This document shows, piece by piece, positions 31,887 to 51,165 of a DNA stretch of 64,000 bases. The notes under the pieces are model-generated. The model had not been told where the DNA came from. It did no database searches and saw only the letters and a program-made list of their open reading frames with translations. The first letter of the stretch is position 1. Each line of letters opens with the position of its first letter. The translations under genes were made by a program, and so were the position numbers. The DNA is from Desulfobulbaceae bacterium (GTDB lineage: Bacteria; Desulfobacterota; Desulfobulbia; Desulfobulbales; SURF-16), in the NCBI GenBank assembly GCA_020444175.1, contig JAHLLM010000020.1, positions 1 to 64,000 of the forward strand. The letters are read 5' to 3'.

Positions 31887-32813
31887 TTGAAAAAACGTAA
31901 AAAGGCAGCATTTATCATCTTTCTTGCCGTGAGCAGTGCGGCGTATGCATCCAAAGGGCCACCCGGGGAAATGTCCTTTGTGAACCATGGAGTGACCCCG
32001 GACACAAACATTCATTTTAACGAAGAATTCTGCACAGAATGTCATCTTGAAATTCCCGGCAAAGGGCAAAAGCTCTTATTGAGATTTGCTGATTTTACCC
32101 AAACCTGCCGCTGCCACGGTTATACACCTGAAAATTACACTCATCCTCTGGGCACCAAGCTTTCCCCTGAAGACAAAAGAAAGATTCCCAAAGGATTTCC
32201 TCTTGCGGAAGACACTATCACCTGCAACACCTGCCATGATTTGACATTGCAATGTGATGCACAAGGGAAGGCAAACCATCGCAACGGGAATTTTCTCAGA
32301 GTAAATTCCCTTCAGCCCAGGAGCGCTCTCTGCTATCAATGTCATGACATTTCCAGTTATCAAAGACTCAGCCCGCACCAACAGTTGGATTCATCCGGAA
32401 AGATTATAAAAGCCAAATGTCTGTATTGTCACAGGATGAAACCGGACGAAAAAAAAGCAACCCTGAAAAAACAGCGCAGCGGTGCAGCGGGCACTGTGGA
32501 GTTTGTAGAGGAATTTAATACGCTCTGTTTCAGATGCCACTACAGGCAGACCAGGCAGCATATCATCAACGCCAACCATCTCAAGCCGCCTCCGGCCAAA
32601 ATTCTTGCCAATATAGCGAATTCGGAAAAAAGACTTGGTGTCATTTTTCCCTTGGATGGCAAGGGGGCCGTTGCCTGTCCAACCTGCCATAATCCTCATC
32701 AGCGGGGGATTATTCCTCCTGAACTGCCGGGTGCCAAGGGAGCAGGGGAAAGAAAGAGACTCCGGGTGACAAAGCAGGGCCACAAGATCTGCGTGGCCTG
32801 CCACAATTATTAA
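31887..32813 (+). CDS. Multiheme cytochrome c (seven CxxCH plus one CxCH)
   Basis: 308 residues. The TTG start gives MKKRKKAAFIIFLAVSSAAYAS, a good Sec signal. Heme motifs in order are CTECH, CNTCH, CYQCH, CLYCH, CFRCH, CPTCH and CVACH; between the first and second is TCRCHG, a CxCH of non-standard spacing. Pairing with PH/H residues resembles the doubled-CXXCH cytochromes. It is first of eight co-directional genes; the next starts 22 bp later. It probably serves as periplasmic electron carrier or as subunit of the DsrO/DsrP-like complex. The Shine-Dalgarno is weak. Confidence 0.9.
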   Translation: MKKRKKAAFIIFLAVSSAAYASKGPPGEMSFVNHGVTPDTNIHFNEEFCTECHLEIPGKGQKLLLRFADFTQTCRCHGYTPENYTHPLGTKLSPEDKRKIPKGFPLAEDTITCNTCHDLTLQCDAQGKANHRNGNFLRVNSLQPRSALCYQCHDISSYQRLSPHQQLDSSGKIIKAKCLYCHRMKPDEKKATLKKQRSGAAGTVEFVEEFNTLCFRCHYRQTRQHIINANHLKPPPAKILANIANSEKRLGVIFPLDGKGAVACPTCHNPHQRGIIPPELPGAKGAGERKRLRVTKQGHKICVACHNY

Positions 32814-32835
32814 ACAAAGAAGCGATGGAGAACAC

Positions 32836-33525
32836 ATGCCGAATTTGACTACCGAGATTGGTCGCCAGAGACCGATCAGTAAAATTTATCCGTATGGAAT
32901 GGCGGTGATTTTATTTTTTTTCTTTCTTTGTATTCCCACCGCAGGCATGTCGGAAACAGAAGGAGCTGAACATGTCCCACTGCCAATTGACGAACAGGCC
33001 GCAAAATCAACTGACAAGGAAAGCGAGCAGTATTCGGTGCCGCCTCCACTTGTCTATCAAGGGCTCTTTCCGTGCCAGGCCTGTCACAGGCGGGATGTGA
33101 GAGGGGTAAGCAGTCAACTGGAAAAGGGCAATGAATTTCTGGGCAAGTACATTCGAAAGCCCGACCCCAAACCGCGCATACTGGTCAAAATGCACAGGAA
33201 CATCAATCTCAGACATGCGGAATGGCACTGGTGCCTGAACTGCCATGATCAGGATGAAAGAAACTATCTCCGGCTCATAACCGGCGAAAAAATCCCTTTT
33301 GAAAAATCATACAGATTATGCGGCCAATGCCACGGCAGCATATACAGAGACTGGAAGATAGGCATACATGGCAGGAGAGTGGGCAACTGGAAGGGGAAGA
33401 AATTATATCTGCTCTGCTCTCACTGTCATGACCCGCACAGTCCGAAGTTCAGAAAACTTCCGGCTGAAGATCCTCCCAGGCCTCCTCATTATGGCCGTTG
33501 GGATGTCGTGGAGCATGAGGAATAA
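32836..33525 (+). CDS. Tetraheme cytochrome c with N-terminal membrane anchor or signal
   Basis: 229 residues with one hydrophobic segment (YGMAVILFFFFLCIPTAGMS, about 20-39), which is a signal or anchor, then a Pro/acidic linker and four heme sites: CQACH, CLNCH, CGQCH and CSHCH. Spacing between motifs is irregular, with HRNINLRHAEWHW before the second. It does not look like the NapC/NrfH type. The C-terminal end is proline-rich. It is second gene of the operon; the 125-bp gap to the next gene contains no clear promoter. Confidence 0.88.
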   Translation: MPNLTTEIGRQRPISKIYPYGMAVILFFFFLCIPTAGMSETEGAEHVPLPIDEQAAKSTDKESEQYSVPPPLVYQGLFPCQACHRRDVRGVSSQLEKGNEFLGKYIRKPDPKPRILVKMHRNINLRHAEWHWCLNCHDQDERNYLRLITGEKIPFEKSYRLCGQCHGSIYRDWKIGIHGRRVGNWKGKKLYLLCSHCHDPHSPKFRKLPAEDPPRPPHYGRWDVVEHEE

Positions 33526-33650
33526 CATGGCGTACTTTGGTGACAATCCGGGCAATCTCTGCTTTTTTTGCCTACGTTCACAGGACAAATAACTGCTAAA
33601 AGCGCATCGTCTCAAGACGGTTGTCGTAACTTGGAACTGGATAAATAAAA

Positions 33651-34520
33651 ATGGACAGGCGAAATTTTATAAAAGGAGCCGCTTCAACACTTGCGGCACT
33701 GGCACTTGCCGGGTGCAACGAACAGGTTGAGGAGTATCTGCAGCAGCACTTTGTGGAAATGAGCAAAGAAGAACTGGATGAGGCCAGGGAGCGACTGAAA
33801 AAGAAATACCGGCAGAAATTCGGGGTGGATTTCAAGATCGGTGCAGAGCCCGCTCTGCCGGAAGTGCTTTTTTCCTATGGACTCGACCTTTCACGGTGCA
33901 TCGGCTGCCGGCGCTGTGTCTATGCCTGTGTCCAGGAAAACAATCAGAGCCGCAAACCACAGATCCAATGGATTCGGGTCGTGCGTATGGAGAACGGCTC
34001 CATGGATCTGGAAGAATCCGACCACTATTACGAGGGCGGCATGGTGCCAAAGGAAGGATATTACACCATGCCGATTCAGTGCCAGCAGTGCGAAAATCCT
34101 CCCTGCGTCAAAGTTTGTCCAACAAAGGCAACCTGGCAGGAGCCGGACGGAATTGTGGTGGTGGATTACAACTGGTGCATCGGCTGCCGTTACTGCATGG
34201 CGGCATGCCCCTATTGGGCACGTCGGTTCAACTTCTCAGAACCCCATATTCCCAAGGAGGAAATCAATCCGAACACACATTACCTGGGAAACCGGCCGCG
34301 CATGAGAGGGGTGGTGGAAAAATGCACCTTCTGCATACAGCGTACCCGGAAGGGACGTTACCCGGCCTGCGTGGAAGCCTGTCCGGTGGGGGCACGTAAG
34401 TTCGGCAACATACTCGATCCTGACAGCGAGATAAGCAAGGTCATTGAGACGAAAAGGGTGTTCCGCCTCAAATCGGAACTGAATACACAACCTAAATTTT
34501 ACTATTTCTTTTCCATTTAA
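33651..34520 (+). CDS. Tat-exported lipoprotein with four [4Fe-4S] clusters (DsrO/NrfC family)
   Basis: 289 residues. MDRRNFIKGAASTLAALALAGC is a twin-arginine signal (RRNFIK) running into a lipobox (LAGC), so it is a periplasmic lipoprotein. Sixteen cysteines make four ferredoxin motifs: CIGCRRCVYAC, CQQCENPPCVKVC, CIGCRYCMAAC and CTFCIQRTRKGRYPACVEAC. This is the DsrO/TtrB/NrfC layout. It passes electrons between the NrfD-like subunit (next gene, 11 bp downstream) and the cytochromes. AAAAGGAGC appears before the second codons rather than before the ATG, so the RBS for the ATG at 33651 is weak. Confidence 0.94.
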   Translation: MDRRNFIKGAASTLAALALAGCNEQVEEYLQQHFVEMSKEELDEARERLKKKYRQKFGVDFKIGAEPALPEVLFSYGLDLSRCIGCRRCVYACVQENNQSRKPQIQWIRVVRMENGSMDLEESDHYYEGGMVPKEGYYTMPIQCQQCENPPCVKVCPTKATWQEPDGIVVVDYNWCIGCRYCMAACPYWARRFNFSEPHIPKEEINPNTHYLGNRPRMRGVVEKCTFCIQRTRKGRYPACVEACPVGARKFGNILDPDSEISKVIETKRVFRLKSELNTQPKFYYFFSI

Positions 34521-34531
34521 GGAGTTGATGC

Positions 34532-35818
34532 ATGCAAAAAGAGTACGTTGCTGATTTTTTTGCGCAGCTCAGGCATTTTCTGTCCCAGGCTGCGCAACGT
34601 CTCATCAAGGGACCGCCCATATATTATGGCTGGCTGTCCTTCCTGCTTCTCATTGTGGGAGCGGGAGTTTACGCTTACACCTATCAGTTTGAGCAGGGGC
34701 TTAATATTACCGGCATGACGGATCAGGTTTCCTGGGGGCTCTACATCTCGAATTTTACCTTTCTTGTCGGTGTAGCCGCCGCCGCGGTTCTGCTTATTAT
34801 ACCGGCCTATGTTTATAATTTCGGGCCTATAAAGGAGATCACTATTCTCGGCGAGATTCTTGCCGTCTGCGCCATTCTCATGTGCATGATGTTCGTTACC
34901 CTCGATCTGGGAAGACCGGAAAGAATGTGGCATCTCATGCCCATCATCGGCCGGCCGAATTTCCCTTCATCCATTCTTGACTGGGATGTTCTGGTGCTTA
35001 ACGGCTACCTTTATCTCAACCTCTTTGTGTCCATTTATCTCCTGTCAACCATGTATTTCAAGAGGAAGGTAAACTACCGCCTTATCCTGCCCTTTATTTT
35101 CTTGTCCATTCCCTGGGCGGTCAGCATCCATACGGTTACCGCCTATCTTTACAATGGTCTTGGTGCAAGGCCCTTCTGGAACTCGGCCATTCTTGCCCCC
35201 CGATTTCTGGCATCGGCATTCTGTTCCGGTCCTGCCCTGTGCATTATCATTTTTCAAGTGGTCAGAAAGTTCACCAATTTCAATGTTTCCGACAAGGCGA
35301 TTTTCAAGATTGGCGAGATGATATGCATTGCCATGGGCATCAATCTTCTGCTGCTGGGGGCGGAGGTCTTTAAGGAGCTGTACACGGATAGTGTCCACAA
35401 GGCGCCTATTGTCTATCTTTTTGTCGGTCTTCATGGCCATGACTCCCTGGTGAAATGGATCTGGACGGCCATGGCCTTTAATATCACAAGCTTTTTCCTC
35501 TTTCTCATTCCTAAAACCAGAAAGAAATATATCACCTTGAACATTGCATGCGTCCTCATTGTTGTCGGTGTCTGGATCGAAAAAGGAATGGGATTGGTTA
35601 TACCTGGTTTTATCCCAAGCCCTCTGGGGGAAATCTGGGAATACTCGCCAAGGCTGTATGAATCCATGATCACGGTGGGAGTATGGGCATTGGGCATGAT
35701 TCTTTATACCCTGGCCTTGAAGATTGCCATCCCCATCGAGCTGGGTGAAATGCATATGCTTGAAAAAGAGACACCCCTGCCTGATGACGAAGCGATCAAC
35801 GTCGAATACTTCAATTGA
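34532..35818 (+). CDS. NrfD/DsrP-like quinone-interacting membrane subunit
   Basis: 428 residues with about ten TM helices. It resembles DsrP in VSWGLYISNFTFLVGVAAAAVLL, VLVLNGYLYLN, IHTVTAYLYNGLGARPFW and ILAPRFLASAFCSGPA. In DsrMKJOP and Qrc-type complexes the NrfD subunit is thought to react with menaquinone. AAGGAG lies before ATG. It forms a pair with the Fe-S lipoprotein gene before it. The cytochromes around it are not DsrJ (triheme), and no DsrMK genes are in view, so it is a related, separate complex. Confidence 0.93.
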   Translation: MQKEYVADFFAQLRHFLSQAAQRLIKGPPIYYGWLSFLLLIVGAGVYAYTYQFEQGLNITGMTDQVSWGLYISNFTFLVGVAAAAVLLIIPAYVYNFGPIKEITILGEILAVCAILMCMMFVTLDLGRPERMWHLMPIIGRPNFPSSILDWDVLVLNGYLYLNLFVSIYLLSTMYFKRKVNYRLILPFIFLSIPWAVSIHTVTAYLYNGLGARPFWNSAILAPRFLASAFCSGPALCIIIFQVVRKFTNFNVSDKAIFKIGEMICIAMGINLLLLGAEVFKELYTDSVHKAPIVYLFVGLHGHDSLVKWIWTAMAFNITSFFLFLIPKTRKKYITLNIACVLIVVGVWIEKGMGLVIPGFIPSPLGEIWEYSPRLYESMITVGVWALGMILYTLALKIAIPIELGEMHMLEKETPLPDDEAINVEYFN

Positions 35819-35935
35819 CCTGCAGTACTGGGCCAGGGATGCCATGCCCAATGAGGGAGGAAGATTTTGAACTCCGCAGTACCTGGAATTTGTTGCTCCA
35901 CCGTAACCTTTAAGTGAAAAAAAGCAGGGAGAGTT

Positions 35936-37315
35936 ATGACAGACAAACGATATCCGCAGCAGATGATTCTTGTATTGACAGTGGTGCTCCTTTTTTGGGC
36001 GGGCAAGGCCTGCGCCTACTATGTGGAGCCGGAAAAATACGGCTCTCCCATTGGCGAGGTCTGTGTGCAGTGTCACAAGGAGGCCACCCCGGGAATTTAT
36101 AATCAGTGGAAAGAGAGTGCCATGGGCCAGGCTGGTGTTAATTGCTATGATTGCCACCGGGCCGAAGAAGGAGATGCTGACGCCTTTGAGCATAAAGAGT
36201 TGATCGCCATCGTCGTCACGCCCAAGGACTGCGCCCGCTGTCATGAAAAGGAGTTCAAGGAATTCCAGGCCTCCCGTCATGCAGATGCCGTGGCGGCACT
36301 GGAAAGAACCGGCAGTCCGGAAGGGCATATTGCCTGGGGACCGGAACATGAACTGACAGGCTGCGCTTCGTGCCATGGTTCTGTGTTGGAGGTCAGGGAA
36401 GGCGGCATGCTGTCGCCAGAAAGCTGGCCTAATACAGGTATCGGCCGCATTAATCCGGATAAGAGCAAGGGATCGTGCACCGCCTGCCATACCCGTCATA
36501 TGTTTTCCCGCGAGCAGGCCAGAAGACCGGAAACCTGCGGCAGGTGCCACTCCGGCGCGGAGTATCCCCAGAAAGAGGCGTACAGCGGCAGCAAACACGG
36601 CATCATGTACCAGGCCTACCGGGATGACATGAATATGGACAGGAGAAGATGGCTGGCCGGCCAGGATTATTTTCAGGGTCCCACCTGTGTGAGCTGTCAT
36701 ATGGGGGCCATGCCTCCTCAGATGGATGTAAAAAACGCAGATGAGAGGATTGATCAGGCCCTGCGTTCGGTGCTTAAAGGAGATGAGAGAGAATTCAAGG
36801 CCCTGCTTGCCCCGACCAGGGTATCAAAAAGAAACTACGGAGTTACCCATGATGTGAGTTCCAGACTGTCGTGGGATTTTAAGCCTGCTGTGTCGGAGAA
36901 GAGAGAGGACTGGCAGATGAAAAGAGAGATGATGCAGGCGGTGTGCAAGCAATGCCATGGCGATCATTTTGTTGGGCAGCATTTCATGCAGCTTGATCAT
37001 CTTGTGGAACGATACAACAACAAATTTGCCGAGCCTGCCACGGCTATCCGCAAGGCCCTGATTCGCGAAGGCAAACTCTCATCAGATGAATACGATGACA
37101 AGTTGGATAAGATTTACTGGAGTATTGTCAATGAAGAGGGAAGAAAGGCCAGAAACGGTGCAGCCATGATGAATCCCGGATATGCATGGGACAAGGGGAT
37201 GAAGGAGCTGGCGAAACGTTTTGATGAGGAATTTATCCCTGAAGTACGTGCCCTGATGGGACGTAAAACTGATTCATTATTAGAGAAATACGGCTATGCA
37301 GACTTACATCATTAA
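35936..37315 (+). CDS. Octaheme cytochrome c of the hydroxylamine-oxidoreductase (HAO) superfamily
   Basis: 459 residues with signal (LTVVLLFWAGKACA) and eight CxxCH sites: CVQCH, CYDCH, CARCH, CASCH, CTACH, CGRCH, CVSCH and CKQCH. The helical C-terminal half after the last heme (LDHLVERYNNKFAEPATAIRKAL... MMNPGYAWDKG) is typical of the HAO-type octahemes, which form trimers. Whether the cross-linking tyrosine of true HAO is present cannot be decided here. In anaerobes these proteins are often reductases of nitrite or hydroxylamine, or electron conduits. It overlaps the next gene by 20 bp. Confidence 0.87.
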   Translation: MTDKRYPQQMILVLTVVLLFWAGKACAYYVEPEKYGSPIGEVCVQCHKEATPGIYNQWKESAMGQAGVNCYDCHRAEEGDADAFEHKELIAIVVTPKDCARCHEKEFKEFQASRHADAVAALERTGSPEGHIAWGPEHELTGCASCHGSVLEVREGGMLSPESWPNTGIGRINPDKSKGSCTACHTRHMFSREQARRPETCGRCHSGAEYPQKEAYSGSKHGIMYQAYRDDMNMDRRRWLAGQDYFQGPTCVSCHMGAMPPQMDVKNADERIDQALRSVLKGDEREFKALLAPTRVSKRNYGVTHDVSSRLSWDFKPAVSEKREDWQMKREMMQAVCKQCHGDHFVGQHFMQLDHLVERYNNKFAEPATAIRKALIREGKLSSDEYDDKLDKIYWSIVNEEGRKARNGAAMMNPGYAWDKGMKELAKRFDEEFIPEVRALMGRKTDSLLEKYGYADLHH

Positions 37316-38315
37316 TACACATGTCTGGCCGGACTTAAGCCCGGCCGGACACAACAAGGGATTAAGATTTCCTGCTCCGGCATGGCTGCGCTTGGCGTTC
37401 CGCTTGAGCTTTCATGCAACCAGAGTTCTGTTTATCTTCGCGGTGCTGACACCGATTACGGTTCTGGTCACACTGCAGATGGCCCATGGCCAGAACTATT
37501 CGAGCCGGCTGGTCAACGGCCTGTTCAAGTTGGGATATCCGCTTGATCGGCAATCCGTCATAGCGCTTGATAAAATCAGCATGCGTTTTAACGCTCCAAA
37601 CCGTATTGATGTGCTGAACAGGATTCTGGGCGACAGGCACAAAATTCATAGTATGGAAGAAGGAGAGCATTTCATTAAAACACAGGTTGTCTGCGATGCC
37701 CTGCGTCTTCTTGATGAACTGGATCTGCCTGTAACCCGCGATATAGTTGAAAAGCTTGTCGGTGAGAAGGGCTGGGAAGAGAAAGAGCGCCGGATTCTGT
37801 CCTACATGGCAGCCAAAAGAGATATCGATTTTGAAACAAATATCCAATATTTGATCCGTGCCATGCCGCGCCAGGGTGCTGATCTGCAGGAAGAGTGGGA
37901 TGGCGAGATCTCTCTTGCCATCATGGATATCTGCGATAACCTCTCTTATTTGGCGGAACTTTTTGTCTTGAGGGGTGACCCTGCCATTCTCAATGCCTTG
38001 GTCAATTATGCCGGACAGGCCTATGGCTATCCCAAGGAGCATCTCTCCTACATGTTTGTCGAAACGCTTCTGGCCAGACCGCATCTCTTTGTCGCTATCC
38101 TGTCGGCAAGAGATGAAGTCAGTGTGCGTCAGGTGGTGAAATCTCTGTTCTTTGCCAGGTGGACAAACAATGTGCGCGAGAAGATAGAGGCTCTTCTTGA
38201 CAATGATTTCGCCGGAAGCGGGTACTCTGACAATGAATTTGTAACAATGATGCGCCGGCGGCTTGCCCGTTTTCCTGGAAACAGCCAGGATTTACATGAT
38301 ATTGCAGAACATTGA
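37296..38315 (+). CDS. Unrecognised one-TM protein in the cytochrome operon
   Basis: 339 residues. One hydrophobic helix at about 42-64 (TRVLFIFAVLTPITVLVTLQMA) separates a short N-terminal part from a predicted all-helical domain with HEAT/TPR-like heptads (DALRLLDELDLPVTRDIVEKLVGEKGWEEKERRILSYM). No Cys pairs and no heme motifs. It overlaps the octaheme gene by 20 bp and lies 3 bp before the NHL gene, so it is clearly part of the same unit. Possibly a scaffold or assembly factor anchored in the inner membrane facing the periplasm. Family not recognised. Confidence 0.75.
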   Translation: MQTYIINTHVWPDLSPAGHNKGLRFPAPAWLRLAFRLSFHATRVLFIFAVLTPITVLVTLQMAHGQNYSSRLVNGLFKLGYPLDRQSVIALDKISMRFNAPNRIDVLNRILGDRHKIHSMEEGEHFIKTQVVCDALRLLDELDLPVTRDIVEKLVGEKGWEEKERRILSYMAAKRDIDFETNIQYLIRAMPRQGADLQEEWDGEISLAIMDICDNLSYLAELFVLRGDPAILNALVNYAGQAYGYPKEHLSYMFVETLLARPHLFVAILSARDEVSVRQVVKSLFFARWTNNVREKIEALLDNDFAGSGYSDNEFVTMMRRRLARFPGNSQDLHDIAEH

Positions 38316-38318
38316 TCC

Positions 38319-39269
38319 ATGAGAAAGGTTATGAATTCCACACGGTTTCTGCTGGTTTTCTGGCTTGCTGTCATCATGCTGCACAGCCTGAATATCCCAG
38401 CCCCATGCAGCCAGGATGAACTCAAATACCTGCCGGTCAGGCATGTGGGCGATATTGCAGGCCACTTCAATCAACCAACAGAGGTTGCTGTTGCCCCTTC
38501 AGGCAGGATCTACATCCTTGATGGAGCAAATAATACAATCGAGGTTTTTGACCAACAGGGGCGAAAGGTATTTTCTTTTGGCAAGGCCGGCAAAGGGAAG
38601 GGAGAATTTTCCCAGCCGGTTGGAATGGATATTGACAGTGAGGAAAATATTTATGTCGCCGATACCGGCAACAGGCGGGTGCAGATTTTTAACAGCAAGG
38701 GGCGCTTCACCTCTGCAATAGATCTGCGAAGTAAAAAGGCGCGGCCTGTAGAGGTCAAAAAAGAGACTGGGTCGGACAGGATCTATATCAGTGATACCGA
38801 TAATCACCAGATACTCTGCTTCAAACAGGACGGCAGCTTTGTTTCCTCATGGGGTGGTTATGGAAACAAAACAGGCCAGTTTATGTATCCCGGCATGGCG
38901 GATGCGGATGCCGCCGGTAATCTGCATATTGTGGATATCTTAAACGGCAGGGTGCAGGTATTTGATACCTCCGGTAAAAAAATCAGACAGATCGGCGCCT
39001 TCGGTATCACGGCAGGCACTTTGTTCCGTCCGAAAGGGGTCATAATTGATTCGCAAAACAATGTCTATGTTTCAGACAGTTATACAGGTGTTATCCAGTG
39101 TTTTGACAGCACCGGCAATCTGCTGGGCATTCTGTCTGAGGACAGCAGGGAGCCACTCCGGCTGACGACTCCTCTGGGCATGGCAATAGATGGTAAGCAG
39201 AATCTTCTCTATGTTGTCCAGGGACAATTAAACAAGGTCAGTATTTTTGCGCTTCAGGGTGGGATATGA
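38319..39269 (+). CDS. Secreted NHL-repeat beta-propeller
   Basis: 316 residues. Signal peptide to about residue 30 (FLLVFWLAVIMLHSLNIPAPCSQ). Six NHL blades follow, for example FNQPTEVAVAPSGRIYILDGANNTIEVFD, FSQPVGMDIDSEENIYVADTGNRRVQIF and FMYPGMADADAAGNLHIVDILNGRVQVF. It has no catalytic motif. NHL propellers commonly bind partner proteins or polymers. Its stop overlaps the start of the 22-heme cytochrome (ATGA-type, 4 bp), which means translational coupling and suggests a stoichiometric partnership. Confidence 0.93.
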   Translation: MRKVMNSTRFLLVFWLAVIMLHSLNIPAPCSQDELKYLPVRHVGDIAGHFNQPTEVAVAPSGRIYILDGANNTIEVFDQQGRKVFSFGKAGKGKGEFSQPVGMDIDSEENIYVADTGNRRVQIFNSKGRFTSAIDLRSKKARPVEVKKETGSDRIYISDTDNHQILCFKQDGSFVSSWGGYGNKTGQFMYPGMADADAAGNLHIVDILNGRVQVFDTSGKKIRQIGAFGITAGTLFRPKGVIIDSQNNVYVSDSYTGVIQCFDSTGNLLGILSEDSREPLRLTTPLGMAIDGKQNLLYVVQGQLNKVSIFALQGGI

Positions 39270-42124
39270 AAATGAGATCAGTCGTTTTCCCCATCTTCTT
39301 TTTTCTTTTCTGTACCACCTTCATTCCTCGGGCTGAAGCACTGGTCAAGAGTTCTAAAAAGGCTGAATGCACTGTCTGTCACGTTCTGTCGATGGATACC
39401 TTTCTTACCGACCGGCCAACGTTGCTGGAATCCACCCAGACCAATATTGTCATTGCCGGATCAGTGGGACTCTCCTCATCAGAGAGGATCTGCGACAGTT
39501 GCCACGACGGTTATATAAAGGATAGCAGAAATGCCATCAACCCGGATAACAGGCACCATCAGTTAAGGAAAGTGCCGGACTGGCTGGAGTTGCCCGAAGT
39601 TCTCAGGCTAGACATTAATAATGAGATTTACTGCGGCACCTGCCACGGCTTCCATGATGTGCGTGGCAGGGGTGAAGTGGGCAGTACGCCCTTCATGCGT
39701 ATGGATAATACCCGCTCGGAAATGTGCATGGCCTGTCATAAGGACAAGACGGGCGAACTCGGACTGAGCAATCATCCGCTTAACAAAAAGAGTGACATCA
39801 TCCCCAGGGAGGCAGTGGAAAACCTGGGCGGTAAGCTTGGTCCAGATGGAGAAGTTATCTGCCAGTCATGCCATATTTCCCACAAAAAGCCGACGCTGCT
39901 TGCTGATCTCAAAGGTTCGGAAATATGTGTGGTTTGTCACAGCAACAAGAAAAGCATATTTGCCTCTGATCACAACATGTCACTCTCCTACCCAACAATG
40001 AAAAACAGTGCGGGCAGTGATGCCAGCGAAACCGGCCCATGCAGCAGTTGTCATCTGCCCCATAAAGGCAACGGCAAGCGCATGTGGGCCAGGAAAATTG
40101 ACAAGGGGAATCCTGCCAGCCAGGCCTGTCTGTCCTGCCACAACCTGGAGATGTGGATAAAAACCATTGGCACCCATTCGCATCCCGTGGACGTGAAAAC
40201 AAAAAAGAAAGAGGGGCTGCCGCTTTTTTCAGCCCAGGGAGGAGAGGATAAAAACGGCACGGTTCAATGTGCAACCTGCCATGATGCACATACATGGGCT
40301 GCCAGCGGTTCGGTTTATGTAAAGGGCATGGAAGGCAGGGCGGAAAACAGTTTTTTGCGTATTACAAATACATCATCAACGTTGTGCATCACCTGTCATG
40401 ATGACAAGGGGACCATTATCGGCACAGATCACGACCTGCGCCTCACCGCGCCTGATGTTACCAACAGGTTTGGGCTGTCCGCGGATATTGCCGGTCCTTG
40501 CGGTTCCTGTCACATGCCCCACAAGGCTGCGGGTGCCAAGTTGTGGGCCGGAAGGGCAACGCCGGGAAATCCTGCCTCGCAAATGTGCTTATCCTGTCAT
40601 GGAAAAGAAACCCCTCATATACAAAAAACCATTGGCGAATACTCCCATCCCATCAATGTCACGACTTCAAAGGCGAGACACGCGAAAAACAGTCTGCCGC
40701 TTTTTGCCGATAATGGTGCCCCGAGTGCATCCGGCAGCCTGCAGTGCGCTACCTGCCATAATCCCCATAGGTGGAACCCCGAATCTGCCGATGACCGGCC
40801 GGGCAGGAATATAGAGGGTGATTCTTCAAACAGTTTCCTGCGTGTGAAAAATTCAAGTGAGTCAGCCCTTTGCCAGCAATGTCACGGGGATAAAAAACAG
40901 GTGATTGCCTCTGACCATAACCTGAGCGTAACAGCACCAGATGAAAAGAACAGCATGGGCATGACGGCAGCGCGGTCAGGTCCCTGCGGAGCCTGTCATG
41001 TTCCCCATAATGCAGAAGCCAAAAGGCTCTGGGCAAAGAAGGTTGAAAAAAGAAAGGATCTTATCAGCGGTCTCTGCCTGAGTTGCCATGATGAAAATGG
41101 TGCAGCTCGCCGGAAAAAAATCACAGGCAACTCCCATCCGGTCAATGTCACACTGTCCCGGATTAAGTCGGCAAACGACGTCGCAGATATTTTCCCTCTT
41201 TACAAAGATGAAGGCGACAGCGAACAGGAGGGCAAAGTTGTCTGCAGCACCTGCCACGATCCCCATACCTGGTCACCGGAGGATGCCTCTTCCGGAAAAG
41301 TGAAGCCCCTGCAAAAGAACATTGAAGGCGACGCATCGAACAGTTTTCTGCGCAAAGCTAACTTTCCGGATTCAAACCTGTGCAAGACATGTCATACGAC
41401 CCAGGCCCTGGTGGCCGGAACTCCCCATGATTTGAGTACATCCGCTCCGGAGGCACAAAATATTCTCGGCCAGACTGTAAGGGAGTCGGGACAATGCGCG
41501 GTCTGTCATCTTGTCCACAACAGCCCTAACAGCCTGAAATTGTGGGCAAGGCCCTATGGCCCGGTCAAGAAATATGAAAACAGGATGATAGGTCTCTGCA
41601 CCAGTTGCCATGCCAGAGGCCGGGTGGCGGAAAACAAGGTGCAGGAGATAGCCAATCATCCCAAGGGAATTCTGACAAGTTTTGAGCAGGGATTTATCAA
41701 GGTTGTATACGATGATACGGGATATAAGAAAGTAGTCGAGGCTTGTGGTCCGTCAGATGAACCAACCGTTCGCTATACCCCCATCCTTGTCAATAATGTG
41801 GTTGGCTTCAGCAGTGGCAACAACTATACTCCGCTCTTCAGCAACAGGGGCAGGGAGGTTAATGTCGGCACAATATCATGCCCTTCCTGTCACGACGTTC
41901 ATGTCTGGAACCGGCAGCAAAAAGAGAGTAATGGCGGTGAAAATGCCGATGGGCCGGCAGGTGTCAAATTTTTGCGGACAGAGAGTTCTCGTCTTGTTTG
42001 CATAGAGTGCCACGGACCGGACGCACTGTTTCGCTATCTCTATTTCCATTCTCCGTCAAGCAGAACAAGAGATGGAAACCGGCACCAGGATCAAGCCAAC
42101 CGGTTTGTTGATTCTTTGGACTGA
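39266..42124 (+). CDS. 22-heme cytochrome c with four internal repeats
   Basis: 952 residues with signal (VVFPIFFFLFCTTFIPRAEA). There are 22 CxxCH sites: six in the N-terminal 225 residues, then four repeat units starting at about residues 257, 410, 572 and 742, each with four sites. The unit reads GPCxxCHxPH, CLSCH, (H)PV.V, LPLF, QCATCHxxHxW, EG..xNSFLR, LCxxCH, DHxL. This is the doubled-CXXCH type (PF09699-like). It has no membrane anchor, so it is periplasmic or exported; with a length like this it could span a large distance as a heme wire. Last gene of the operon; a convergent kinase gene ends 45 bp away. Confidence 0.94.
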   Translation: MKMRSVVFPIFFFLFCTTFIPRAEALVKSSKKAECTVCHVLSMDTFLTDRPTLLESTQTNIVIAGSVGLSSSERICDSCHDGYIKDSRNAINPDNRHHQLRKVPDWLELPEVLRLDINNEIYCGTCHGFHDVRGRGEVGSTPFMRMDNTRSEMCMACHKDKTGELGLSNHPLNKKSDIIPREAVENLGGKLGPDGEVICQSCHISHKKPTLLADLKGSEICVVCHSNKKSIFASDHNMSLSYPTMKNSAGSDASETGPCSSCHLPHKGNGKRMWARKIDKGNPASQACLSCHNLEMWIKTIGTHSHPVDVKTKKKEGLPLFSAQGGEDKNGTVQCATCHDAHTWAASGSVYVKGMEGRAENSFLRITNTSSTLCITCHDDKGTIIGTDHDLRLTAPDVTNRFGLSADIAGPCGSCHMPHKAAGAKLWAGRATPGNPASQMCLSCHGKETPHIQKTIGEYSHPINVTTSKARHAKNSLPLFADNGAPSASGSLQCATCHNPHRWNPESADDRPGRNIEGDSSNSFLRVKNSSESALCQQCHGDKKQVIASDHNLSVTAPDEKNSMGMTAARSGPCGACHVPHNAEAKRLWAKKVEKRKDLISGLCLSCHDENGAARRKKITGNSHPVNVTLSRIKSANDVADIFPLYKDEGDSEQEGKVVCSTCHDPHTWSPEDASSGKVKPLQKNIEGDASNSFLRKANFPDSNLCKTCHTTQALVAGTPHDLSTSAPEAQNILGQTVRESGQCAVCHLVHNSPNSLKLWARPYGPVKKYENRMIGLCTSCHARGRVAENKVQEIANHPKGILTSFEQGFIKVVYDDTGYKKVVEACGPSDEPTVRYTPILVNNVVGFSSGNNYTPLFSNRGREVNVGTISCPSCHDVHVWNRQQKESNGGENADGPAGVKFLRTESSRLVCIECHGPDALFRYLYFHSPSSRTRDGNRHQDQANRFVDSLD

Positions 42125-45664: not shown

Positions 45665-46019
45665 TTTAACGCAACTGTTCGTTCGGTTGGAGTCAGATTT
45701 TCACTTCGCTCTTCTTTTCCAGTTGTTCTTTGGCCGAAACTTTCCATGCGTCAACGAGTAAGCTTCCTGTTATTTGTTCCGTTTTGTGTTTTCTCTTTAT
45801 AGGTTTATTCGATCCTGTTTTTTTGAAACTTCAATATTACCTATTGGATTAACGGAGATGCAACAAGTATATATTCTCATTAACCCCTGCAAAGAAGAGC
45901 ACGCCAGAGTTTGTGGTGATTCTTTGCTGTTGACCATGTTGTTTTCTGGTCAGCAAGTTCCAAATTTCAACAGACAAATGCTTCGACTCAAAAAAGGAAA
46001 AATCAGAATGGAGGGAAAA

Positions 46020-47315
46020 ATGACAGCGCAGCCATTTGAAGTAAAGCCGTATCCCGAAATGTGGGAAAGCCTGGACATGGATGTCCCCAGGTTCGAAAAA
46101 TCCAGACAGATGCTTGGTGAGGTGTATACCAACATGTATCTCTCACAAACGAACCGACCCGCCAAGATGCAGTATTTTGATGATATGGTTTCCGAGATTT
46201 TTGGTGGACGTATCCAGGAGATGCTTGAGGTGAAAAAGACAGGGAAACCGATTGTCGGGACCTTTTGCGTTTATATCCCGGAAGAGGTGGTTGTTGCTGC
46301 CGGAGGAGTGTGTGTTGGTTTGTGCGGCGGCTCCCAGGGATCTGTTCCGGATGCTGAAAAAATCCTGCCAAGAAATATCTGTCCCATGGTCAAATCAGCT
46401 TACGGTTTCAAGGCCGGCAGGATCTGTCCCTATTTCCAGACTGTTGACTTTGTCTATGGCGAGACAACCTGTGATGCCAAGAAGAAAACATGGGAGATTC
46501 TGGACCGCCTCGTTCCCACCCATGTCATGGAAATTCCCCAGATGAAAAATAAAAGGGATAAGACCCTGTGGCTGGAAGAGGTTCACGATTTCAAGGCAAA
46601 GGTCGAAGACGTCTGCGGAGAAGAAATTACCACTGAAAAATTAGCCCAGGCAATACGGGTCATCAATAACAAGCGCAAGGCCTTACAGCGCCTCACTGCC
46701 TTGCGGGCGCATAATCCGGCGCCCATAAGCGGCAAAGATGCTCTTTTGCTGGAACAGATTGCCTTTTATGACGAGCCGGTCCGATTTGCCGAAAAGGTCA
46801 ACGAGCTCTGCGATGAGCTTGAGGAGAGAGTGAAAAACGACGATGGGGTTGCTGATAAATCCGCACCACGCGTCATGGTTTCAGGAACTCCCATGGCCCT
46901 GCCGAACTGGAAGGTGCATAATCTGATCGAAACGGCAGGAGCCGTGGTTGTCAATGAAGAGAGCTGCATCGGTACCCGTTATTTCAAGGATCTCATTGAT
47001 GAAAACAAATCCACCATGGATGAACAGCTCTCTGTTTTGACTGACCGCTATATGCAGATCGACTGTTCCTGTTTTACCCCCAATGATGATCGCGTTGATC
47101 AGGTCTTAAAAGAATACAGGGATTCCAATGCCCAGGGTATTCTGCATTACTCCCTGCAGTTCTGTCATACTTATAACATTGAAGAAATTAAGATCAGGGA
47201 AGCCTGTGAAAAAGAGGGCATCCCCTATCTTTCAATCGAATCCGATTATTCGCCGGAGGATGTTGGCCAGCTGCAGACACGCATAGAAGCATTTCTTGAG
47301 CAGATAAGGGAGTGA
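46020..47315 (+). CDS. Double-cubane-cluster-containing anaerobic reductase (HgdB/BadDE-related, YjiM-like)
   Basis: 431 residues from MTAQPFEVKPYPEMW. GGAGG lies 6 bp upstream of ATG 46020, so this start is preferred to 46008 or further upstream. The 2-hydroxyglutaryl-CoA dehydratase D-component-like family is shown by GRIQEMLEVKKTGKPIVGTFCVYIPEEVV, NICPMVKSAYG, CPYFQTVDFVYGETTCDAKKKTWEIL, EESCIGTRYF and QFCHTYNIEEIKIREACEKEGIPYLSIESDYS. Conserved Cys residues bind the unusual double-cubane [8Fe-9S] cluster. It catalyses a low-potential reduction of a small substrate, still unknown, powered by the ATP-dependent activase encoded 7 bp downstream. Confidence 0.92.
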   Translation: MTAQPFEVKPYPEMWESLDMDVPRFEKSRQMLGEVYTNMYLSQTNRPAKMQYFDDMVSEIFGGRIQEMLEVKKTGKPIVGTFCVYIPEEVVVAAGGVCVGLCGGSQGSVPDAEKILPRNICPMVKSAYGFKAGRICPYFQTVDFVYGETTCDAKKKTWEILDRLVPTHVMEIPQMKNKRDKTLWLEEVHDFKAKVEDVCGEEITTEKLAQAIRVINNKRKALQRLTALRAHNPAPISGKDALLLEQIAFYDEPVRFAEKVNELCDELEERVKNDDGVADKSAPRVMVSGTPMALPNWKVHNLIETAGAVVVNEESCIGTRYFKDLIDENKSTMDEQLSVLTDRYMQIDCSCFTPNDDRVDQVLKEYRDSNAQGILHYSLQFCHTYNIEEIKIREACEKEGIPYLSIESDYSPEDVGQLQTRIEAFLEQIRE

Positions 47316-47322
47316 CCATGCC

Positions 47323-48084
47323 ATGCGTGTTGGAATAGATTTAGGATCTCGCACAATCAAGGTAGCTACGCTTGTCGATGGCGTGCTGCAGGATTTCCGG
47401 GTGGAAGAGAGCGGCTTTGAACCGCATCGTCAGGCCCTGGAGATGGTGGGGAGCTATAAGCCTGGCAAAATAACTGCCACAGGCTATGGACGCCATCTTG
47501 CCCATAAGCATTTTGCCCAGGACGTCATCACGGAAATTAAGGCACATGCCCTGGGTGCCAGGCATTATTATCCTGATTGCATGACCATTCTTGATGTTGG
47601 CGGACAGGACTGCAAGGTCATTGTTTTAAATCAGTCCGGCAAGGTTGCCAATTTTCAGATGAACGATAAATGCGCCGCAGGTACTGGACGCTTCCTGGAA
47701 ATAATGGCTGCCTCCCTCGGGTATACCATAAAGGAATTCGGCGAGGCGGCCATGACTTCCCATCAGGATGTTGTCATAAACAGCATGTGTACCGTGTTTG
47801 CCGAATCCGAGGTGATTTCCATGAAGAATTCCGGGATCAAGCCCGCTGACATTGCCAGGGCCGTGCACCTGTCGGTTACGAGCCGCCTGGTCGGCATGCT
47901 GAACAGAATCGGTTACAAGGAGAAGGTCGTTTTTTCCGGAGGTGTAGCCAATAATCCATGCATCGTGAAAATGCTGGAAGAGAGGCTGCAGATTCCGGTG
48001 TTTATTCCGGAGACGCCTGATATTGTCGGAGCCCTGGGGGCCGCCATTCATGCGGGGAAAAACGAAAATGATACTTTGTCATAG
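47323..48084 (+). CDS. ATP-dependent activase of the double-cubane reductase (BadF/BadG/HgdC family)
   Basis: 253 residues. ASKHA nucleotide-binding motifs MRVGIDLGSRTIKVATL, ILDVGGQDCKVIVLN and the end VFSGGVANN. Cysteine in NDKCAAGTGRFLE and in NSMCTVFAESEVIS bridge a [4Fe-4S] cluster at the dimer interface. It transfers single electrons at very low potential, driven by ATP hydrolysis. GGGAGTG precedes the start. It forms an operon with the reductase. Confidence 0.95.
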   Translation: MRVGIDLGSRTIKVATLVDGVLQDFRVEESGFEPHRQALEMVGSYKPGKITATGYGRHLAHKHFAQDVITEIKAHALGARHYYPDCMTILDVGGQDCKVIVLNQSGKVANFQMNDKCAAGTGRFLEIMAASLGYTIKEFGEAAMTSHQDVVINSMCTVFAESEVISMKNSGIKPADIARAVHLSVTSRLVGMLNRIGYKEKVVFSGGVANNPCIVKMLEERLQIPVFIPETPDIVGALGAAIHAGKNENDTLS

Positions 48085-50497: not shown

Positions 50498-50800
50498 ATG
50501 AGGATAATCGCAAAAAGCCGATTGCGGCAATACTGGGAAAAAGCAGGTAATGAAAAATCACAGCCATACTTGAATGAATGGTATCATTTTTGGGTAAAGC
50601 AGAACTGGTCAAGTCCGCAGGATGTAAAAGACACTTTCAGACATGCTTCTTTTGTAGGGAACCATCGAGTAGTTTTTAATGTAAAAGGAAATGATTACCG
50701 TATTGTCTGTGCTATGGATTACCCCAGACAGGCAATGTATATTAAATTTGTAGGCACCCACAAGGAATATGATTCGATAGAGGTTAAGGAGGTGCACTGA
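50498..50800 (+). CDS. higB: HigB-type toxin (RelE superfamily mRNA interferase)
   Basis: 100 residues. HigB signature: MRIIAKSRLRQYWEK, WYHFWVKQNWSSPQDVKDTFRHASFVGNHRVVFNVKGNDYRIVCAMDY, and IKFVGTHKEYDSI. The C-terminal H-K-E-Y motif is typical. It cleaves mRNA at the ribosome in known HigB proteins. The antitoxin gene follows after 2 bp (HigBA order: toxin first). AAGGAGG for the antitoxin lies within its end. Confidence 0.93.
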   Translation: MRIIAKSRLRQYWEKAGNEKSQPYLNEWYHFWVKQNWSSPQDVKDTFRHASFVGNHRVVFNVKGNDYRIVCAMDYPRQAMYIKFVGTHKEYDSIEVKEVH

Positions 50801-50802
50801 TT

Positions 50803-51165
50803 ATGATTAAACCAATTCGAGACGAGAAGACATATAATCAAACTCTTAAAAGAATTGAAAAACTGTGGGGTGCGGAAATCGGGACGCCTGATGGTGATGA
50901 ACTGGATGTACTCCTGACACTCGTGGAGGTTTACGAGGAAAAACATTACCCCATGCCCCCATCCGACCCGGTGGAAGCCATACTTTTCTGCATGGACCAA
51001 AAGGGTTTGTCGCGGAAAGACCTTGAAACATTTCTTGGACCAAAGAGCAGAGTCAGTGATGTTCTCAACCGGAAACGATCACTTTCAATGAAACAAATTG
51101 TTAATCTGCATCGTGGCATGGGGATTCCATATGAAAGTTTGATTGATGCGAGCCAAGTTAGTTGA
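50803..51165 (+). CDS. higA: HigA-type antitoxin with HTH domain
   Basis: 120 residues: MIKPIRDEKTYNQTLKRIEKLWG at the N-terminus; HTH_XRE-like GLSRKDLETFLGPKSRVSDVLNRKRSLSMKQIVNLHRGMGIPYESLI, a DNA-binding fold. It neutralises HigB and represses the operon at the palindrome upstream. ATG 50803 is 9 bp after AAGGAGG. Confidence 0.93.
   Translation: MIKPIRDEKTYNQTLKRIEKLWGAEIGTPDGDELDVLLTLVEVYEEKHYPMPPSDPVEAILFCMDQKGLSRKDLETFLGPKSRVSDVLNRKRSLSMKQIVNLHRGMGIPYESLIDASQVS

Follow-up and report, generated by a model that had tools for sequence, protein, structure and literature searches.

The stretch of DNA considered here, hereafter the window, comprises 64,000 nucleotides from a Desulfobulbaceae bacterium (assembly GCA_020444175.1, contig JAHLLM010000020.1, positions 1 to 64,000), whose genome amounts to 5.4 Mb in 90 contigs. 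It encodes a giant cytochrome of 952 amino acids in which we counted exactly 22 CxxCH heme-binding motifs, against 0.11-0.13 expected from composition or shuffling. This protein is probably a covalent concatemer of protomers of the OmcE type, i.e., a fixed-length heme wire contained in one polypeptide. Its parts are the following, coordinates being those of the window:

39266..42124, plus strand: gene of the 22-heme cytochrome, 952 aa (open reading frame translation, CxxCH count)
39266..39340, plus strand: Sec-type signal peptide, residues 1-25 (ending in PRAEA, followed by LVKSS), without lipobox (read from sequence)
39341..40033, plus strand: N-terminal six-heme part, with hemes 1-2, then hemes 3-4 and 5-6 as C-D type half-modules (profile comparison, shuffling)
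40034..40492, plus strand: module M1, four hemes, residues 257-409 (heme spacing, identities, module tree)
40493..40978, plus strand: module M2, four hemes, residues 410-571, duplicate of M1 according to the module tree (identities, tree)
40979..41488, plus strand: module M3, four hemes, residues 572-741, counterpart of M2 in 18-heme relatives (identities, tree)
41489..42121, plus strand: terminal module M4, four hemes, residues 742-952 (identities, module tree)
41612..41878, plus strand: longer linker between the second and third hemes of M4, gap of 94 residues (heme spacing; low AlphaFold confidence)
40400..41404, plus strand: two OmcE-phase units (HDL-A-B-C-D twice), folded separately (AlphaFold pLDDT 85.6, pTM 0.81)

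A first, sequence-only reading of this DNA had described four tandem four-heme modules, starting at residues 257, 410, 572 and 742, behind a six-heme head. The 22 hemes, the six-heme N-terminal part, the four modules and their starting points, which fall on GPC or GQC, are all borne out. The motif variants which it quoted (GPCxxCH, CLSCH, QCATCH and LCxxCH) are found in units 1 and 2 but have drifted in units 3 and 4 (VCSTCH, LCTSCH, SCPSCH, VCIECH). Between consecutive hemes, the gaps are 41, 47, 31, 45 and 22 residues in the N-terminal part; each module is then entered by a gap of 38 residues, the internal gaps being 29, 47 and 39 (M1), 29, 53 and 42 (M2), 30, 56 and 46 (M3) and 34, 94 and 40 (M4). 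The insertion noticed between the second and third hemes of the last unit is thus present but adds ~40 residues, not 60 (94 vs. 47-56 in M1-M3). The terminal module of relatives is also generally longer (gap mostly 54-65), and the excess specific to M4 of the window is ~30-40 residues. The repeat goes beyond the CxxCH motifs, since module pairs outscore shuffled sequences in which CxxCH was held fixed and all remaining residues were shuffled (z = 10.4 to 28.3, the observed score being reached in 0 of 500 shuffles). Identities are 50% for M1-M2, 45% for M1-M3, 44% for M2-M3 and 30-40% for the pairs involving M4.

The six-heme head, by contrast with its initial description as a distinct part, is not a separate domain because hemes 3-6 form two half-modules of the module's own kind. 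Indeed, compared with the C-D half of the module, hemes 3-4 and 5-6 obtain profile scores of 78 and 87, respectively, vs. at most 32 for an unrelated six-heme family, and the window sequence alone agrees (z mostly 4.8-13.6 by shuffling with CxxCH fixed). We also considered hemes 1-2 as a degenerate A-B half, which proved unsupported (z -0.8; marginal profile score of 36 vs. 32 for the control). The first heme of the protein is carried by CHxxW where the modules have CHxxH. The architecture, as deduced from these comparisons, is a two-heme cap followed by a pair of C-D half-modules and then the four full modules.

The module and OmcE from Geobacter sulfurreducens (PDB 7tfs) are alike in having four hemes and the same motif order, i.e., HDL, CxxCHxPH, CxSCH, HP, CxxCHxxH and LCxxCH. 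When the PDB sequences were searched with a profile of the unit, OmcE came first (E 7.4e-8) and 9yuq second (1.3e-7), the next match being at 4.5e-4; a whole-family profile returned 9yuq (4e-11), OmcE (1e-10) and MtrA (7e-7). OmcE was reached by profiles only, phmmer with the single 22-heme protein returning nothing from the PDB. A PDB search with the six-heme cytochrome found next to the giant gene in relatives, run as a single sequence and not as a profile, did not return OmcE, which argues that OmcE is not a generic top match for multiheme proteins here.

Homologues of the giant cytochrome were collected by one genome scan, giving 77 named loci (Nitrospirota, Desulfobacterota, Gammaproteobacteria and others). 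In 11 of these loci (L084:4228-4848, L096, L105, L108, L110 and others), the fetched region contains stand-alone OmcE-like four-heme genes close to the giant gene; some of these loci also encode a barrel-like protein and a peptidyl-prolyl isomerase (PPIase). One of the stand-alone genes was tested and proved clearly homologous to OmcE (E 2.8e-24). Aligned to the profile of these stand-alone genes, the unit profile scored 136 over 141 columns, covering unit positions 4-165 of 166, while unrelated controls scored 25-33 and the 7-heme neighbor, itself partly related, 84. HDL, CxxCHxPH...LW, CxSCH, HPV, CxxCHxxH, LR and LCxxCH all stand in register, and the four CxxCH motifs and four distal histidines of the module are collinear with OmcE over its length. 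Profile comparison hence indicates homology between each module and the OmcE tetraheme subunit over the whole length. In the literature searched, which left out most subscription papers, we found no description of the OmcE-type nature of this module. Modular multiheme wires are already known; what is new here is this identity of the module.

Structure prediction is consistent with this homology. In the two-unit model, the first unit (residues 10-163) superposes on the entire OmcE chain (residues 30-231), with 124 residues aligned, a root-mean-square deviation of 2.7 Å and Z 7.1, the next row being at 4.4. The full-length model (pLDDT 73.3, pTM 0.66) has OmcE and MtrA as its best structural rows; its residues 122-502, which hold ten consecutive hemes, align to MtrA 62-333 (Z 5.6). 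Such Z values are no more than suggestive, and it is the sequence evidence that carries the OmcE claim.

Across the family, heme numbers of 18, 20, 22, 24, 28, 32, 38 and 49 were found. Complete genes from the 77-locus scan mostly have 18, 20, 22, 24 or 28 hemes, the largest members having been added by wider sampling:

L144:3659-9928, minus strand: 49-heme member, 2090 aa, with internal repeated blocks of half-module plus modules
L145:3778-8694, plus strand: 38-heme member, 1639 aa
L146:8502-12545, minus strand: 32-heme member, 1348 aa

Apart from a few irregular cases, the complete genes from the 77-locus scan follow one grammar, namely a six-heme head, zero to two half-modules and three to five full modules. 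Half-modules have an entry gap of ~47-53 and an internal gap of ~24-27 residues, full modules an entry gap of 38 and internal gaps of 29-32, 46-58 and 41-45. Relatives from Desulfobulbales have 18-, 20- and 22-heme forms, their 22-heme ones being 6+2+2+3x4; read from heme spacing, 22 hemes are thus reached by two routes, the other being the 6+4x4 of the window. At L057, which has the same operon type as the window, the homologue has 18 hemes, i.e., exactly one module fewer. For the closest operon relative (G027), the gene ends at the contig end and the remainder was not found on other contigs.

A tree of 264 modules gives the position of the additional module. All 82 of the 82 terminal modules group in a single clade (support 1.0), M4 of the window among them. 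Its M1 and M2 both fall within the M1 clade of the 18-heme relatives (support 0.984) and its M3 with their M2, a placement with which the module identities agree. Compared with the 18-heme relatives, the window hence has a second copy of module 1; as judged from the tree, the extra module is this copy, whether through gain in the window or loss elsewhere. L039 has the same architecture as the window and its own copies pair together (FastTree support 0.859). Its duplication is likely separate from that of the window according to FastTree, although a more careful tree does not establish this; a topology holding the window's two copies together was not rejected (p-AU 0.6).

The sequence-only reading had proposed growth by module duplication and looked to orthologues for variation in unit number. 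The number does vary, from 18 to 49 hemes, rather than staying constant. Together with the L057 homologue one module shorter and the shared clade of M1 and M2, this variation supports growth of the family by module duplication, to which two-heme half-modules would also have been added. Unit number could nevertheless have drifted by neutral unequal recombination between repeats, with no functional effect on reach, and we regard this as a serious possibility, albeit short of probable. The two routes to 22 hemes, the range of 18-49 in one family and recent-looking copies (e.g., two L145 modules that are 86% identical) would all fit such drift. However, several clades hold one number across wide divergence, as do the many Nitrospirota forms with 18 hemes, and the spacing within modules is nearly invariant.

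The ligands suggest how such a chain may be organized. In OmcS, 11 of the 12 ligands come from the subunit itself and one from its neighbor (PMC6584659), and OmcE has the same interface ligation (PMC9473688, PMC12954529). Among the giant cytochromes, conserved distal histidines number one fewer than the hemes in three groups (17 for 18, 17 for 18 and 23 for 24), with four per module. In OmcE, separate subunits polymerize outside the cell, whereas the units of the window protein are fused to a set length, the first being modified and the last longer. We propose that the inter-subunit histidine ligation became intrachain, the ligand being provided by the following module of the polypeptide. The first unit would have lost its donor histidine, presumably because nothing precedes it. 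CHxxW at the first heme and the missing distal histidine point to a capped N-terminus and one heme left open, presumably at the C-terminal end. The last unit would have a heme without its usual donor, left for a partner to complete or contact. Stacked in the order of the sequence, the hemes would make up an uninterrupted chain with ~8.5 Å per heme, to which the 2.7 Å fit of the predicted unit to the OmcE chain lends indirect support. OmcE rises 34 Å per four-heme subunit (PMC12954529); if packed likewise, each module would contribute ~34 Å and the 22 hemes ~190 Å. The fixed step by which each module was initially supposed to lengthen the wire is plausible by analogy, through the homology of the module to OmcE.

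An open C-terminal heme, which seems to be without a distal ligand of its own, would also suit an extracellular base, tip or joint of OmcE-type filaments, as would the stand-alone OmcE-like genes described above, some with β-barrel and PPIase genes. Such a role is unlikely in our view: most loci are without a nearby OmcE-like or barrel gene, as is the window operon, few family members (4 of 88) carry a lipobox-like motif ahead of the first heme, and the N-terminal cap does not have the histidine that would donate to a preceding subunit.

In the window, the 22-heme gene closes a set of eight genes, the other seven being:

31887..32813, plus strand: 7-heme cytochrome (cytA), with relatives in 41 of 77 loci
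32836..33525, plus strand: 4-heme cytochrome with N-terminal hydrophobic segment (locus comparison)
33651..34520, plus strand: 4Fe-4S protein exported by the twin-arginine translocation (TAT) pathway, DsrO-like (194 bits, cut-off 200)
34532..35818, plus strand: NrfD/DsrP-like quinone-interacting membrane subunit (NF045798, 423 bits, cut-off 350)
35936..37315, plus strand: octaheme cytochrome of the HAO family (best PDB match 4qo5, E 1.2e-36)
37296..38315, plus strand: 339-aa protein matching no Pfam or NCBIfam family, seen only with the window operon type (G027, L057)
38319..39269, plus strand: NHL β-propeller protein, with a homologue in 71 of the 77 loci, in most cases as the gene just upstream of the giant one

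In most relatives, the giant cytochrome and the NHL propeller are accompanied by a six-heme cytochrome c, a b561-type cytochrome and a three-heme cytochrome c (each in 53-58 of the 77 loci), a putative quinone-oxidizing set. The last two are fused at L099:7285-8877 and separate elsewhere. In the window, its place is taken by the 4-heme cytochrome, the DsrO-like iron-sulfur protein, the DsrP-like NrfD protein, the HAO-family octaheme and the 339-aa protein; a search of the window genome did not find the cytochrome b module of relatives, an empty result that counts as weak. The window operon type is rare (of 258 genomes from the order, 2 have the 339-aa protein) and is also found at L057 (identities to the window genes of 59% for the 4-heme cytochrome, 75% for the iron-sulfur protein, 73% for NrfD, 60% for the HAO-like protein, 39% for the 339-aa protein and 53% for NHL). 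There, two 18-heme copies, each with its own NHL gene (L057:1017-3320 and L057:9989-12331), flank the same 4-heme/iron-sulfur/NrfD/HAO-like set. The DsrO/DsrP-like module and the octaheme protein (33651-37315) might together form a quinone-linked reductase of nitrogen compounds.

As HAO-like and NrfD-type genes share the operon in the window, L057 and L150, the giant cytochrome could be the dedicated electron donor of the octaheme protein and no general wire. We hold this to be very doubtful, since among the 77 loci the HAO-like gene is present only in L057 and the usual companions of the giant cytochrome are NHL and the cytochrome b set. Pairing with two different quinone-linked modules fits better with a general conductor. 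The concatemer would likely carry electrons between an inner-membrane quinone module and a distant partner across the periplasm, and its unit number would set its reach.

Several points weigh against such a wire. The AlphaFold prediction has low confidence over the first 72 residues of the mature protein and over the M4 linker, and a Z of 7.1 lies in the range of middling matches. Foldseek against the PDB gave 0 matches for the full model and nothing meaningful for the two-unit model; OmcE and OmcS themselves are reported to match only their own close homologues (PMC9473688). Regarding ligands, the count of one histidine fewer than hemes assumes that the conserved histidines are the distal ligands, and in the 22-heme 6+4+12 group 22 histidines were counted, including two neighboring ones of which one may be spare. 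The periplasmic location is one we infer from the Sec signal without lipobox and the neighboring genes. Finally, the 49-heme relative would measure ~420 Å, which is longer than the usual periplasm.

Several known systems invite comparison. The dodecaheme GSU1996 and GSU2210, the Geobacter "nanowires of hemes" (PMC10138318), are single-chain periplasmic wires, as the window protein would be. GSU1996 consists of tandem domains joined by short linkers, with three hemes each, one per domain being a His-Met heme (PMC10138318). Unlike it, the window protein has no tandem three-heme domains but four-heme modules with four conserved distal histidines, plus two-heme half-modules, and unit number varies in its family. 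The window protein could also be mainly an electron store, the many hemes of one soluble periplasmic protein buffering electrons and module number setting capacity, not reach; a related proposal has been made for GSU1996, with its 12 hemes (PMC10138318). Added modules would indeed raise capacity as well as length, and the window operon has no porin. We nonetheless think it improbable that this is the main role here: homology to a filament-forming protomer and ligands in register point to a linear chain, which can store charge too, so that the two functions are not exclusive.

PCC3 (PMC5566968, PMC10734462) has large repeat-containing cytochromes, the periplasmic one, with 21-27 hemes, being proposed to span the periplasm. 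It also has a porin and an extracellular cytochrome, whereas neither a porin nor an extracellular multiheme cytochrome was recognized among the eight genes at 31887-42124 (Pfam, NCBIfam); this comparison is by description, not sequence. Likewise, the OetABI/propeller operon of bacterial partners of anaerobic methanotrophic archaea (PMC5539420, PMC10553843) combines, as the window does, a six-bladed propeller with large cytochromes (16 and 26 hemes), the cytochromes being compared by description only. Its propeller core includes a PPIase, and a porin belongs to the Oet conduit, neither of which is in the window operon; with regard to the Skennerton/Oet arrangement, the propeller is present without a rotamase domain, which some relatives do have (e.g., L110). 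The MtrA/DmsE decaheme (TIGR03508; PDB 6r2q) forms a linear heme wire to which ten hemes of the window model align, but the window protein scores 68.8 bits against this family's cut-off of 192.2. The model of the 16-heme HmcA (NF045713) gave no match to the 22-heme protein.

Elsewhere, the window genome encodes many more cytochromes with doubled CxxCH (contigs C10, C19 and C22; 85 Paired_CXXCH_1 matches). By reading only, the window also holds two small adjoining genes that look like a HigB/HigA-type toxin-antitoxin (50498-51165) and a pair resembling a subunit of the 2-hydroxyacyl-CoA dehydratase type and its ATP-dependent activator (45774-48084).

More tentatively, and with less confidence than in the concatemer itself, these cytochromes may represent a widespread family of length-coded nanowires, with differing numbers of fused OmcE-type protomers. 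The gene would set the reach of a single molecule, capped at its N-terminus and completed by a partner at its C-terminus, its reach suiting the distance between quinone module and partner. Studies of cytochrome nanowires have dealt with filaments whose length is not defined, so that their physiological role and their conductance per length are difficult to test. Natural concatemers of 18-49 hemes would be monodisperse wires, each of a defined length, built from one protomer type, and would let the length dependence of electron transfer be measured directly. Moreover, they would tie large cytochromes of usually unsettled origin to the protomers of extracellular nanowires and would clearly exemplify the growth of respiratory wires by whole modules and half-modules.

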